From Gemmatimonadaceae bacterium (lineage in GTDB: Bacteria; Gemmatimonadota; Gemmatimonadetes; Gemmatimonadales; Gemmatimonadaceae), in assembly GCA_036496605.1 (NCBI GenBank), contig DASXKV010000033.1:62001-126000 (forward strand): DNA of 64,000 nt, given 5' to 3'. The translations under genes were made by a program, and so were the position numbers. The first letter of the stretch is position 1, and each line of letters begins with the position of its first letter. The notes under the pieces were generated by a model. The model did no database searches, was not told where the DNA came from, and saw nothing but the letters and a program-made list of their open reading frames with translations. Below are positions 30,879 to 60,194 of the stretch, one piece after another.

Positions 30879-33539
30879 TCACTCCGTGCGCATCGCAATC
30901 AACGGATCCACCGACACGGCTCTCCGCATCGGGACGAGGCACGCCAGCATCGCTGTCGCGAAAAGCAACAGCGCGCCCGCCGCGAAGGAGTATGGATCGC
31001 TCCGCGGCACGCCGTAGAGCATCTTGTCGATGAACTTCGTCGCCCAGAATGCGCCGCCGAGGCCCACCGCGATGCCCATGATGGCGAGAAACGCGCCCTG
31101 CGTCAGGATTGCTCGGCCAATTGTGCGCCGCGTGGCGCCTAACGCGATGCGAATACCAATCTCCCGTGTTCGCTGCGCCACGGCGTACGCCAGGACGCCA
31201 TAGAGTCCCACGGCAGCGAGCACGAGGGCGAGGATCGTGAACGCCGCGAGCAACATCATCGTAAACCGTGGCGTGGCGATGCTCTGCTGCATCGCCTCCT
31301 CGACGTTAGTGACGTTAGGCAGAGGCAGATGGCGATCGATCGCCGGGATGAGCTTGCGCACGCTGGCGATCGGGTTCGTGCCCGGTTTCGCGCGCACGAG
31401 GATGGCGGGGTGATATCGCCCCTGGAACGGCACATAGAGTAGCGGATCGCTCGCATCCAGCGTCAACCCGCTCGTAAACGCATTGCCGACGACGCCGACG
31501 ATGGTCATCCAGTCGCCGCTCCCGTTGAAAACCACACGGACGCGGTGGCCGAGCGCGCTCCTGCCGGCGAAGTACTTCTTCACGAACCCCGCGTTGACCA
31601 TCACCTGATTGGATTTGTCGGACGTGTCCGAAAAGGTCGTTCCTTCGATGAGGCGAATGCCCATCGCGCGGAAGTAATTCGGCTGCACGCCGTTGTAGTC
31701 CACGAACGCCGTCGTCCCCAATGGCGGCGCCGGCTCTCCGTCGATTTGAAGCGCGCCGATGAGAAAGCCCTCGGAGGCCGGTGCTTCCTCCGCCATCATC
31801 GCGCTCTCGACGCCGCCGATGCTCCGCGCTCGCACCGTGAGCTCCGCGTAGAACGCTCGCCGCGCCGCGGGCGTCGCATACGCCTTCTCCGGCAAGATGA
31901 TCGTGATTCCGTACATTCCGCGCGCATCGAATCCCGCATCCATCATCTGGAGACGAACGACGCTGCGCACGAGGAGAGACGCGCCGACAAGCAGCGCCGT
32001 CGACAGCGCGATCTCGCTCACAACGAGGAGGCCGCGAAGCCGGCTCTGCCGCCGGGAATGCGAAGTGCTGAGCGCGCCCGCCTTAAGTGACTCGTGCGTC
32101 GAGTGACGCGCCGATTGCATCGCCCCAACGATTCCGAACAGGAGTCCGGTAAGTGCCGAGACGCCGATCGTCACCACTAGCGTCGTGAGATCGATGCGAG
32201 CGCCATCGAGCTCGGTAAGCGTTCCTGGTCGCAACGCGACGAGCGCCTCGAGGCCCAGCCATCCGACGAGCATTCCACCAACGCAGCCTGCCGCAGCGAG
32301 GACGAAGCTCTCCGTGAAGAGCTGCCGCACCAGCCGGCCTCTGCCCGCGCCTAACGCGGCTCGAATCGCGAGCTCGCGTTGACGCGACGCCGCGCGCGCC
32401 AGGAACAGGTGCGCGACGTTGGCGCACGCAATGAGCAGCACGAGGGCGACCGCGCCGCTGAGCAGGAGCAGAGACTCGCCGAAGCCCACCATCTGCCGCG
32501 GCGGTATCAACTTGCTGTGGAACTGCATCTTCGACTTCTCGGCGGCATCGATGCGCGTCGAGATCGAGTCCAGATCACGCTCCGCGACGGCGTACGTCAT
32601 CCCTGGGCGCAGGCGTGCCATGGTTGAGTAGCCGACGTGCTCGTTATGCAGGTCGAGCGGTAGCCAGACCTCGATCGCGGAGAACGCCCGGGGCAGACGC
32701 ACGCGAGAGGGCATCACGCCGATGATCGTGTACATCGAGCCGTCGAGCGTGAGCGTCTGGCCAATGATCGTGGACTCTCCGCCGTATCGCGACCGCCACA
32801 TTCCCTCGCTCACCATTGCCACGTGCCCGTTCGGCAGATCGCTTTCGGTGAAGGCACGGCCGAACAATGGATGTTCACCGGCGAAACGCAGGAAACTCGG
32901 CAAGATCGACGCGGTCGTCACCGACACCGCGTCACCGCGCGGCGGCACGAGCGTCATCGATGCGGACGTATACGGCTCGATATCCTCGAGTGCACGCGAC
33001 GACTCACGCCAGGCGCGGATCACGGAGGCACGCGCCGTGACCGTCACCATCATACCAGTCGTGTTGCCCTGTGTGGGCTCCTGATACAAGAACGCGACGC
33101 GATCGGCGTGTGGGTACGGCAGCGGATGGAGCAGCAAGCTACTGACGACGCTGAATACCGCGGTATTCGCGCCGATGCCTAACGCCAGTGTCAGGATCGC
33201 CACCGCCGTCCAGCCTTTCTGTCGGCCGAGCGTGCGGACGGCGAAGCTCACGTCCTGTCCAAGGGCATCGACGAGCTGGGCGCGGGTCATGCGGCGTTGC
33301 CTCCTTGTGGTGATCGTCAGGCACTCGGCACGATCGTTCGAGAGATCGCCGAGGCGTTTCACGGTCGCCGCGCGCGCCTGCGCCTCAGACATCCCCCGCT
33401 CCATGTAGTCGCGGACTCGCATCTCGATGTGAAAGCGCAGCTCGTCGTCGACGTCCGCTTCAGCGCGCGGCCCCCAGAAACGGAGATACCGGCGCCACGT
33501 CGCCGCGCGGTGTGCGTGCGGGGCGTGCTCGTCGCTCAC
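30879..33539 (-). CDS. MacB/FtsX-like ABC permease (orphan duplicated-permease type)
   Basis: An 886-residue permease. The N-terminal cytoplasmic domain DDELRFHIEMRVRDYMERGMSEAQARAA is the typical leader of the Acidobacterial duplicated orphan permease group (ADOP). It is followed by a first FtsX core with membrane segments around TAVAILTLALGIGANTAVFSVV, a large MacB-like periplasmic domain, and two blocks of three membrane segments; the C-terminus VGLYGVLAYAVAQRTREIGIRIALGAT is conserved. There is no ATPase gene beside it. Function in efflux of peptides or drugs is assumed from MacB. Start GTG at 33539 lies 1 base after the padR stop, so the two are co-transcribed. Converges with the LysR gene. 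Confidence 0.88.
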   Translation of the reverse strand: MSDEHAPHAHRAATWRRYLRFWGPRAEADVDDELRFHIEMRVRDYMERGMSEAQARAATVKRLGDLSNDRAECLTITTRRQRRMTRAQLVDALGQDVSFAVRTLGRQKGWTAVAILTLALGIGANTAVFSVVSSLLLHPLPYPHADRVAFLYQEPTQGNTTGMMVTVTARASVIRAWRESSRALEDIEPYTSASMTLVPPRGDAVSVTTASILPSFLRFAGEHPLFGRAFTESDLPNGHVAMVSEGMWRSRYGGESTIIGQTLTLDGSMYTIIGVMPSRVRLPRAFSAIEVWLPLDLHNEHVGYSTMARLRPGMTYAVAERDLDSISTRIDAAEKSKMQFHSKLIPPRQMVGFGESLLLLSGAVALVLLIACANVAHLFLARAASRQRELAIRAALGAGRGRLVRQLFTESFVLAAAGCVGGMLVGWLGLEALVALRPGTLTELDGARIDLTTLVVTIGVSALTGLLFGIVGAMQSARHSTHESLKAGALSTSHSRRQSRLRGLLVVSEIALSTALLVGASLLVRSVVRLQMMDAGFDARGMYGITIILPEKAYATPAARRAFYAELTVRARSIGGVESAMMAEEAPASEGFLIGALQIDGEPAPPLGTTAFVDYNGVQPNYFRAMGIRLIEGTTFSDTSDKSNQVMVNAGFVKKYFAGRSALGHRVRVVFNGSGDWMTIVGVVGNAFTSGLTLDASDPLLYVPFQGRYHPAILVRAKPGTNPIASVRKLIPAIDRHLPLPNVTNVEEAMQQSIATPRFTMMLLAAFTILALVLAAVGLYGVLAYAVAQRTREIGIRIALGATRRTIGRAILTQGAFLAIMGIAVGLGGAFWATKFIDKMLYGVPRSDPYSFAAGALLLFATAMLACLVPMRRAVSVDPLIAMRTE

Positions 33540-33540
33540 G

Positions 33541-33882
33541 TCACCGGCCCGCCGGCGCCGTGCGGAGCACCTTGAAGACGGCGTCCGAGAATCGCGCCCA
33601 GGTGTCATGCGACGCCGCGAGCTGCTTCTTACCGAGCACCGTTAGGCGATAGAACTTGGCCCGACGGTTATGCTCGCTGATTCCCCACTCCGCGGCGATC
33701 AGTCCCTTCTCCTCGAGCTTGTGGAGCGCCGGGTAAAGCGACCCTTCTTCCACCTGCAAGACGTCGCTCGTGCACTGCTCGATCCAGCGGGCGATGCCGT
33801 ATCCGTGCGTCGGTCCCCAGGACAAGGTCTTGAGGACCATGAGGTCGAGCGTGCCTTTCAGGAAATCGACGGAGGAATCCAT
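33541..33882 (-). CDS. PadR-family transcriptional regulator
   Basis: A 113-residue winged-helix protein. FLKGTLDLMVLKTLSWGPTHGYGIARWIEQ, VEEGSLYPALHKLEEKGLIAAEWG and RAKFYRLTVLGKKQL are the family hallmarks. It probably represses the permease gene downstream with which it forms an operon. A 46-bp palindrome begins 46 bases before its start codon and is a good candidate operator. Same length and organisation as the PadR at 59724-60065. Confidence 0.94.
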   Translation of the reverse strand: MDSSVDFLKGTLDLMVLKTLSWGPTHGYGIARWIEQCTSDVLQVEEGSLYPALHKLEEKGLIAAEWGISEHNRRAKFYRLTVLGKKQLAASHDTWARFSDAVFKVLRTAPAGR

Positions 33883-33927
33883 GTGTTGAGCGCTGAGTGC
33901 TGGGCGCGAGCGAGCCGCAAAACGGGG

Positions 33928-33973
33928 CGTACCCTAGGAGTCCGAGGTATATACATCGGAGTCCTAGGGTACG
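33928..33973. promoter_or_regulatory. 46-bp near-perfect palindrome upstream of padR
   Basis: Left arm CGTACCCTAGGAGTCCGAGG and right arm CATCGGAGTCCTAGGGTACG around a TATATA centre; 21 of 23 arm positions pair (mismatches at arm positions 13 and 19). It lies between the stop of the small membrane protein gene and the padR start. It does not resemble a terminator because no T-run follows. Likely a PadR or dimeric regulator operator, as PadR proteins bind palindromes with an AT-rich centre. The length is more than one dimer footprint, so two dimers may bind. Confidence 0.7.
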
Positions 33974-33995
33974 CAAGTCGTCTGCGCGCTGCGCC

Positions 33996-34298
33996 CTAAT
34001 GCGGCGTGATTGCCTTGGCGCGCGACATGTCCGCTGGATTCTGATGTCCCTTCTCGACCAACAGCTTGGTCGTGAACCGCTGCCCTTCGCTGATCCGCTC
34101 GACCTCGACCGACGTCGCGTCGACCGCCTGCTCGATCCGAGCGAGTCGCTGTGCCATCTCCTCCAATGTCGTGAGGGCACTTTCCTTCAGTACGGGCTTC
34201 CGACGATTCATCGCCGTGAGGATGATCCGCGTTATGCACCCCAGCGTCGCCATCAGGCCGGCGAAGACAAACACCTCATCGAGAATCCATCTATCCAT
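33996..34298 (-). CDS. Small membrane protein with C-terminal coiled segment (paralogue B)
   Basis: A 100-residue protein with one N-terminal membrane segment (VFVFAGLMATLGCITRIILTAM), a short basic turn, then RLARIEQAVDATSVEVERISEGQRFTTKLLVE and a final AITPH. The coiled part matches the protein at 24931-25230. GGAG seven bases before the ATG at 34298 supports the start. Unknown function; cytoplasmic coiled tail anchored to the inner membrane. Confidence 0.82.
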   Translation of the reverse strand: MDRWILDEVFVFAGLMATLGCITRIILTAMNRRKPVLKESALTTLEEMAQRLARIEQAVDATSVEVERISEGQRFTTKLLVEKGHQNPADMSRAKAITPH

Positions 34299-34392: not shown

Positions 34393-34749
34393 TCACGCCG
34401 CCGGCGTGAACCAGAGCGGGCGACGATACCGAATGCAGATCTCCTCACCCACCGCGATCGAGCGGAGCGCAACGAGGGTCACCGTCAGCTCCGCCTCATG
34501 GCAGACGACTTCGGCGTTTGGGCTTTCGGCGTGGTTGCACAACGAGATGACGCCGAGCACGATGCACGCGCGGTCCTGTCGCTCACCGAAGCGAAAATTG
34601 TAATCGCCGAGTCGGGTCTTCGAGATGCGCCCCGCGTCCTCGTCATCGTACACGATGACGGGGCAAGTGACAATCGCTGCGCCCGCGGCGATCGCTTGCG
34701 TCGCCACGATGCCGCGTCCCTTGCGCTTGAGTTGGCGAATGGCGAACAC
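34393..34749 (-). CDS. SET-domain protein (lysine methyltransferase family)
   Basis: A 118-residue protein consisting of a minimal SET domain: KGRGIVATQAIAAGAAI at the start, VISLCNHAESPNAEV (the Asn-His of the S-adenosylmethionine pocket) at about residues 67-80, and ALRSIAVGEEICIRYRRP near the end, where GEEI and the following Tyr are conserved. It could methylate lysine on a protein; substrate unknown. Start is GTG at 34749. Bacterial stand-alone SET proteins are often single genes with no conserved context, and this fits: neighbours are unrelated. Confidence 0.85.
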   Translation of the reverse strand: MFAIRQLKRKGRGIVATQAIAAGAAIVTCPVIVYDDEDAGRISKTRLGDYNFRFGERQDRACIVLGVISLCNHAESPNAEVVCHEAELTVTLVALRSIAVGEEICIRYRRPLWFTPAA

Positions 34750-59723: not shown

Positions 59724-60065
59724 TTAGGTCGATCCGAGCGCCATGTTGATCGCCATCGCAACGCGGGACCATTCGTCCGTCTCATCCTTGAACTGACGTC
59801 GTCCGGCCGCAGTCAAGCGATAGTATTTGGCGCGACGCTTCGCCGCGGACTCTCCCCACGACGAGGCCAGCCACCCGGCCTCCTCCATCCGATGGAGTGC
59901 CGGAAACAGCGAGCCAGGTTTGACACGAAAGGTGCCCTTGGTGAGCTGCTCGATGCGGCGCGAGACGCCGAGCCCGTGCAGCTCGCCGAGGACGAGCGAT
60001 TTGAGGATGAGCAGGTCGAGCGTTCCCTGCAGGAGCTTCGTCTGCTCGGTCTTCGCTATCGACAT
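59724..60065 (-). CDS. PadR-family transcriptional regulator between two divergent permeases
   Basis: A 113-residue regulator: TKLLQGTLDLLILKSLVLGELHGLGVSRRIEQ, VKPGSLFPALHRMEEAGWLASSWG and RAKYYRLTAAGRRQFKDE. It very probably represses its own operon and the divergent permease at 60195. A TTGACA box at 60099-60104 (minus strand) stands 17 bases before CATTCT, and the ATG follows shortly after, so the mRNA would have almost no leader. Confidence 0.94.
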   Translation of the reverse strand: MSIAKTEQTKLLQGTLDLLILKSLVLGELHGLGVSRRIEQLTKGTFRVKPGSLFPALHRMEEAGWLASSWGESAAKRRAKYYRLTAAGRRQFKDETDEWSRVAMAINMALGST

Positions 60066-60079
60066 TCTATACGAGAGAA

Positions 60080-60103
60080 TGACATCCCTCATATCGAATG
60101 TCA
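60080..60103. promoter_or_regulatory. TGACAT-N12-ATGTCA dyad overlapping the padR promoter
   Basis: Six perfect pairs around a 12-base spacer; a further GACATTC half-site in inverted orientation lies at 60061-60067 over the padR start codon. The dyad covers the TTGACA -35 box of padR and lies in the 129-base region between the divergent padR and permease starts. It is a good PadR operator candidate, so PadR may repress its own transcription and the permease. Confidence 0.6.
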
Positions 60104-60194
60104 ATAGGTCTCCGACCAGTCTCCATTCCCGCTCTTGCGCCTCGGTCGGCGCAACCGTATCGTCTCTTGTAGAAGCGCAAAGGGAGAGACCGTC

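Follow-up and report, generated by a model that had tools for sequence, protein, structure and literature searches.

A 48-bp palindrome as a probable twin operator of a PadR-ADOP operon, and a recognition code suggested across its PadR paralogs

The window, i.e., the whole 64-kb stretch of DNA that was analysed, contains a long inverted repeat in front of a repressor gene and a permease gene. The features of this locus are the following.

33927-33974, no strand assigned: inverted repeat of 48 bp, two 24-base arms with no gap, 22 of 24 positions paired (92%)
33541-33882, minus strand: gene for a PadR-family repressor of 113 aa (TIGR03433 padR_acidobact; Pfam PF03551)
30879-33539, minus strand: gene for an ADOP duplicated permease (TIGR03434; 779 bits, cut-off 622.3)
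33996-34298, minus strand: small upstream gene of about 100 aa, its start inferred from the open reading frame

The PadR/permease operon that the earlier note had placed behind the palindrome was confirmed, the PadR gene being followed by a permease of the ADOP/MacB-FtsX type whose start is likely the GTG at 33539, one base past the PadR stop codon. Both proteins pass the curated NCBIfam cut-offs of TIGR03433 and TIGR03434, the repressor with 144.7 bits (cut-off 101.8) in addition to 72.6 bits for Pfam PF03551. No Pfam match was found for the small upstream gene. A small stand-alone SET-domain protein (PF00856, 48.7 bits) is encoded at 34393-34749 of the window on the minus strand.

The AlphaFold2 monomer model of the focal PadR (mean pLDDT 82; 56-69 for the remaining four models) predicts helices at residues 11-20, 27-37, 46-58 and 82-108 and, as the wing, strands at 62-68 and 74-80. 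It resembles LmrR and other PadR structures matched in the PDB, LmrR being among the closest solved folds. With a winged helix-turn-helix (wHTH) PadR domain, a length of about 110 aa and one C-terminal helix, the protein belongs to the PadR-s2/TIGR03433 type. The signature tyrosines of the wHTH, Y28 and Y50, were matched to Y28 and Y48 of LftR via the motifs YGYE(I/L) and EGT(L/I)YP, as given in the parts of PMC6457526 and PMC3506622 drawn on here; among 23 sequences Y50 is invariant and Y28 variable.

The assembly (5.97 Mb, 70 contigs, 97.4% complete) contains 65 PadR matches and at least 67 ADOP permeases over the curated cut-off (67 of 168 candidates scored). A long co-oriented ORF begins within -60 to +250 of the PadR stop at 57 of the 65 loci, these ORFs having been picked by position and strand. 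The nearest named relatives of the focal PadR come from Gemmatimonadota metagenome assemblies. One PadR copy of the same genome (L063, contig C55) carries an in-frame TAG and is perhaps a pseudogene.

Within the 64-kb window the repeat is the only gap-free palindrome with 24-base arms and at least 20 pairs, whereas the best palindromes of 100 dinucleotide-shuffled windows reached 16 to 19 pairs. It is the palindrome reported earlier at 33928-33973 (21 of 23 pairs), extended by one pair at each end, and TATATA at 33948-33953 is indeed its middle. A search of the assembly for further copies, which the earlier note had proposed, allowed up to 3 mismatches to the ideal dyad core and returned the focal palindrome alone, through the two focal dyads described below. 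The reversed core pattern, searched as a control in the same way, gave 20 matches per strand, so such words are generally rare in this assembly. The canonical PadR box, ATGT-N8/10-ACAT, was ruled out as the identity of the palindrome by direct reading of 33927-33974: the sole ATGT on the gene strand lies 2 bp from a TACC/ACCT-type sequence, with no ACAT at 8-10 bp.

Among 148 genomes sampled from the family, seven clear orthologs of the focal PadR were found (loci L068 to L074, 76-89% identity), the next relatives having about 66% identity or lower. With gaps counted as differences, the repeats of L068 to L074 match the focal one at 43, 41, 38, 37, 29, 36 and 37 of 48 positions, in that order, while the upstream flank (70 bp) matches at 14-31 positions and the downstream flank (40 bp) at 5-18. 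Conservation in close relatives, on which the earlier note had staked its reading, was thus observed: the palindrome is recognisable at 7 of 7 loci, with a degenerate copy in L072 and a perfect 42-bp version in L068, where ATGT-N4-ACAT is present. The downstream permease is also orthologous where loci are long enough, with 70-77% identity in L097 and L098 and 50% in L099 (comparison permeases L101-L103: 32-35%).

The persistence of the palindrome amid poorly conserved upstream DNA is also relevant to its possible action as RNA. Since it lies 21 bp past the stop of the small gene at 33996-34298, on the same strand, and can pair with itself, it might act as a hairpin that terminates that gene's transcript or makes it more stable. 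No terminator-like site, with a G+C stem followed by a T run, and no Rfam match were found, however, and self-pairing would explain neither the common half-site core nor the covariation with the PadR protein reported below. With both the terminator scan and the Rfam search empty, a hairpin or terminator is unsupported, and we regard it as most improbable.

The build of the palindrome can be read from two of the orthologs. In L074, TACCTAGGACTCCTTGGTA is a 19-bp dyad of its own; the middle of that locus is GGTA-CGA-TACC, with TACGATA in place of TATATA, and its dyad centres are 22 bp apart, against 21 bp at the focal locus. L070 reads TACCTAGGACTCAGAGGTA-TA-TACCACGGTGTCCTAGGTA. Because of these sequences, the focal palindrome is most likely composed of two abutting, odd-centred 21-bp dyads, O1 and O2, whose centres lie 21 bp apart, with presumed promoter elements placed as follows.

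33971-33976, minus strand: presumed -35, TTGCGT; TTG at the same position in 8 of 8 loci (focal and seven orthologs)
33951-33971, minus strand: operator dyad O1, 21 bp, centre 33961, within the promoter spacer; from the twin-dyad scan
33948-33953, minus strand: presumed -10, TATATA, 17 bp from the -35 and at the midpoint of O1 and O2; retained at 7 of 8 loci
33930-33950, minus strand: operator dyad O2, 21 bp, centred at 33940, immediately past the -10; from the twin-dyad scan

None of 60 shuffles matched the twin-dyad score of the focal locus. A scan for sigma-70 consensus promoters reported none at the palindrome, and the focal -35 and -10 consequently rest on position and conservation. With the promoter elements assigned in this manner, a dyad overlaps the padR promoter, as is characteristic of a PadR autoregulatory operator.

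By itself, O1 pairs at 5 of 9 or 10 positions and O2 at 6 of 10, so that O1 alone falls short of the twofold symmetry seen over the full palindrome (22/24). This difference would favour one long operator occupied by a single PadR dimer at the middle (GATGTATATACCTC), the outer arms serving as flanks or as a bending aid, as would the conservation of the centre GTATATAC in 7 of 8 loci and the importance of an AT-rich centre for cdPadR1 (PMC5050560, as far as drawn on here). Yet the extra central base of L074 leaves both dyads in place, pairing at 5 and 8 of 10 positions with a spacing of 22 bp, many paralogs have dyads 32-34 bp apart without the focal centre, and the LmrR dimer corresponds to 22 bp according to the consulted part of PMC5428041. 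Once two dyads had emerged in orthologs and paralogs, a single long operator was disfavoured, and we consider it improbable. The earlier statement that the palindrome is longer than most PadR operators therefore holds for the string, but orthologs and paralogs indicate that its length is that of two abutting operators.

To place the focal layout in the family, 245 unique PadR upstream regions, left from 255 loci after removal of 10 with a duplicate or short upstream region, were scanned for two odd-centred 21-bp dyads with common half-sites, with 60 shuffles each and reaching 20 bases into the gene. Twin dyads beat 60 of 60 shuffles in 95 regions where about 4 were expected (25 of 65 from the same genome, 46 of 107 from relatives and 24 of 73 from named genome contigs of several phyla), and at least one of 60 shuffles was equally good in the other 150. 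Some of the 95 significant regions are low-complexity sequences or plain repeats. Odd centres scored higher than even ones in 88 regions and lower in 4. The mean half-site of the 95 regions, from the outer end to the centre, is roughly T-[CT]-C-C-[CA]-T-A-G-A-N, and a core with T at position 5 and G at position 3 (T5/G3) is present in 77 of them and absent from 18. Across the 95 regions, centres are most commonly 32-34 bp apart (42 cases), the -35 then falling within O1; among the 77 T5/G3 loci, centres are 21-23 bp apart in 14, 31-36 bp in 47 and otherwise spaced in 16. A -35-like TTG[AC] starts at O1 base +5 in 38 of the 47 wide-spaced loci and at -5 relative to O1 in 6 of the 14 close-spaced ones. 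The focal promoter thus follows the family layout, with O1 moved downstream by one helical turn and so merged with O2 into a single palindrome.

Operators within the genome are partly alike. Among 20 consensus half-sites, those of L002 and L048 are identical over nine bases (ATATGTAGA) and those of the focal locus and L027 differ by one, leaving full orthogonality of these operators unsupported. The half-site common to L002 and L048, whose similarity makes cross-talk possible, includes ATGT, as the classical PadR box does. Two further loci of this genome depart from the usual arrangement of two dyads: L049 (contig C27) has three dyads with a TCTCCT-type half-site in a row upstream of one PadR, and the displayed upstream region of L017 (contig C16) is a caaccct tandem repeat in which no operator can be called.

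Covariation between repressor and half-site was analysed in 50 non-redundant pairs, 27 of 77 having been dropped by thinning at 75% identity; the filter on this training set required T5 and G3, and Ala48 loci were consequently under-sampled. Pairs whose repressors agree at the presumed DNA contacts also have similar outer half-sites (r 0.48, partial 0.44), whereas the partial correlation with the rest of the PadR protein is 0.003. Only 1 of 200 random residue sets equalled the contact set, which was taken from wHTH geometry and from the LftR and BsPadR papers and was set after the first ranking had been seen. The strongest single pairs were residue 48 with base 3, Tyr28 with base 7 and wing residue 72 with base 9, and the top 20 also included residues 20, 35, 37, 38, 88 and 98, which are not expected at DNA. 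On average, recognition-helix columns score on bases 2-8, with a peak at base 4, and wing columns on bases 8-10; in the AlphaFold2 model, residue 48 is near the start of helix 46-58 and residues 71-72 are between the wing strands.

The alignments suggest that recognition-helix residue 48 goes with base 3 of the half-site, Ser with G, Ala with A and Pro with T. The focal PadR and its seven orthologs all have Ser48, and all four focal half-sites carry G3. Dyads were called in 57 of 168 held-out loci (none in 111), blind to bases 1-4 but with T5 required, and part of this DNA had been displayed before the test; Ser48 went with G3 in 47 of 56 half-sites and Ala48 with A3 in 43 of 48. A combined prediction of bases 3 and 4 succeeded in 131 of 176 cases in the held-out set, mostly owing to base 3, because the second component, Glu45 setting base 4 as the covariation had hinted, failed in replication (C 25, A 19, T 13 and G 13 in 70 half-sites) and was rejected as a general rule.

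For replication, the rule was written down first and applied to 90 further loci of the same phylum, near relatives of earlier loci included; dropping 11 duplicates with identical upstream regions left 79 unique loci, 41 called and 38 uncalled. The relation predicted these unseen members in 57 of 68 half-sites from 34 loci (Ala-A 36/46, Ser-G 19/20, Thr-G 2/2), against a mean of 32.8 and a maximum of 53 in 5000 permutations of the set. The seven Pro loci, for which there was no prior prediction, were kept outside this count and had T3 in 12 of 14 half-sites. Over all 143 called loci the half-site counts are 125/140 for Ser-G, 90/108 for Ala-A, 14/16 for Pro-T and 19/20 for Thr-G; after exclusion of half-sites containing TTG, which a -35 might impose, they are 92/107, 90/102, 14/16 and 7/8, respectively. 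Counted per locus, the rule fits 110 of the 112 Ser/Ala loci with a clear base 3, the exceptions being L040 and L340; 12 of 124 were set aside for an ambiguous base 3.

In the Pro48 repressors of L056, L280, L290, L299, L300, L313 and L318, LYT replaces LYP, and their half-sites are near-identical, starting with TCCCCTCT or ACCCCTCT. L335 is an eighth Pro48 locus, with A as base 3. At the wing, Asn72 was found with C at position 9 in 48/70, 65/104 and 51/62 half-sites of three sets and Gly72 in 0/14, 2/6 and 2/20, a tendency and no strict rule, from which the focal module itself departs (Asn72 with A or T at position 9 of its half-sites).

A relation of this kind could be inherited with clades of PadR and need not be a contact code. 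The tree was computed with the DNA-binding columns left out. On the best tree residue and base each change 10 times, and 9 of these changes coincide in branch and direction, one of the nine being a reversal; this argues for a code, as do Pro-T3 as a third letter and the persistence of the relation outside TTG-containing half-sites. Support for the branches is poor, however, and independent pairs on the starred, well-supported branches are few (3 in one analysis and 1 in the replication); the base did not differ in 7 of 200 replication pairings, and, as noted, the replication loci were drawn from the same phylum, some of them being closely related to loci already used. On balance, clade history is an unlikely explanation of the residue-48 relation.

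The same covariation bears on the identity of the regulator. PadR binding at the palindrome is deduced from sequence, which would allow for some regulator besides the adjacent PadR, but the palindrome accompanies the focal PadR through seven relatives, is the sole close match in the assembly and has half-site letters that covary with PadR residues across loci. An operator for another regulator is therefore scarcely to be expected.

The window contains a second PadR gene, for which the earlier note had raised the possibility of a different recognition rule.

59724-60065, minus strand: second PadR gene, 113 aa
60056-60107, minus strand: two candidate dyads of the second PadR, found by eye, at 60091-60107 and at 60056-60072 (over the ATG)

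These candidates are not significant, 55 of 60 shuffles being as good in a scan ending at the ATG, nor did the second PadR outscore every shuffle in the family scan, which extended 20 bases into the gene. The dyad over the start codon would suit a leaderless transcript or a later start. What stands of the earlier claim is that half-sites differ, CCTAGG-type at the focal locus and, by eye, TATAGA/TATCGA-type at the second PadR; but the odd-centred dyad, T at position 5 and the relation between residue 48 and base 3 are common across the family, and the second PadR has Ser48 and by-eye dyads with G3. The neighbouring modules look like one rule read in different letters, not two rules.

Conservation, promoter-like elements and protein-DNA covariation together support well the earlier proposal that the palindrome is the PadR operator of the PadR/permease operon. 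We consider it very probable that the PadR-ADOP operon is autoregulated from this palindrome, an operator-promoter made up of two adjacent, mutually inverted dyads. Each 21-bp dyad would be the site for one PadR dimer, the four half-sites of type TACCTAGGA pointing at two centres 21 bp, or two helical turns, apart, with the -10 TATATA between the dyads and the -35 TTGCGT at the upstream edge. With two dimers bound to one face of the helix, the core promoter would be occluded and RNA polymerase kept out. Repressor and permease would both be expressed once PadR leaves the DNA, presumably in response to a ligand, as with LmrR. Paralogous PadRs of the same genome would use their own variants of the dyad, with residue 48 (Ser in the focal PadR) setting base 3 (G in the focal half-site).

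Several dimers per promoter and autoregulation are already known for LmrR and cdPadR1 (PMC4534193, PMC5428041, PMC5050560, each as far as drawn on here). The Clostridioides difficile PadR-s2 protein cdPadR1, like the focal PadR, has two inverted repeats in its own promoter, each bound separately in EMSA, one over the predicted -35/-10 and the other nearer the gene, a placement that fits autoregulation. Unlike the focal dyads, they are not described as fused into a long palindrome in the consulted part of that report, and their motif, TACT-N11/12-AGTA, has about 200 genome matches (PMC5050560), against a single close match for the focal operator in its assembly. LmrR of Lactococcus lactis is likewise a small PadR-s2 repressor of a transporter and binds with more than one dimer per promoter, as proposed here, but differs in its PadR box, ATGT-N8/10-ACAT, and in controlling the ABC pump LmrCD instead of an ADOP permease (PMC4534193, PMC5428041). 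TIGR03433 and TIGR03434 name the proteins, and no operator description was found for either. In the LacI family, a code obtained from local regulation also correlates few residues with few bases (PMC2978694, in the part used here); LacI is nonetheless another family, and the PadR-s2 code is spread over dozens of paralogs per genome. PMC5045206 was also consulted. The open-licence literature yielded nothing on PadR operators in Acidobacteria, on PadR with MacB permeases there, on ADOP, on PadR specificity residues or on PadR in Gemmatimonadetes; the search covered open-licence papers only and is thus weak evidence of novelty. The kind of operator is known; neither its fused layout nor the code turned up in the open papers searched.

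As the probable operator of an autoregulating repressor, the palindrome is ordinary in kind and uncommon in its twin layout; a family-wide, testable recognition rule is the more interesting outcome. In 2012 a conserved recognition-helix motif was taken as a hint of a common operator (PMC3506622), and in 2019 the grasp of operator reading by small PadR repressors (PadR-2) was called highly limited (PMC6457526), according to the parts of these papers drawn on here. Many natural repressor-operator pairs now show a common geometry and a residue-to-base match. We lean towards the view that recognition by PadR/ADOP paralogs, in Gemmatimonadota as in Acidobacteriota, follows a near one-letter code in which residue 48, next to a Gly of the recognition helix on its C-terminal side, sets base 3 and the wing tip biases the outer bases. 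Mutation at these few positions would let dozens of repressors within a cell keep largely separate promoters, the focal palindrome being a fused variant. If this is right, the operators of unstudied PadRs would be partly predictable, specificity could be tested with a single mutation, and the family would offer a large natural set of parallel repressors in which cross-talk can be measured.
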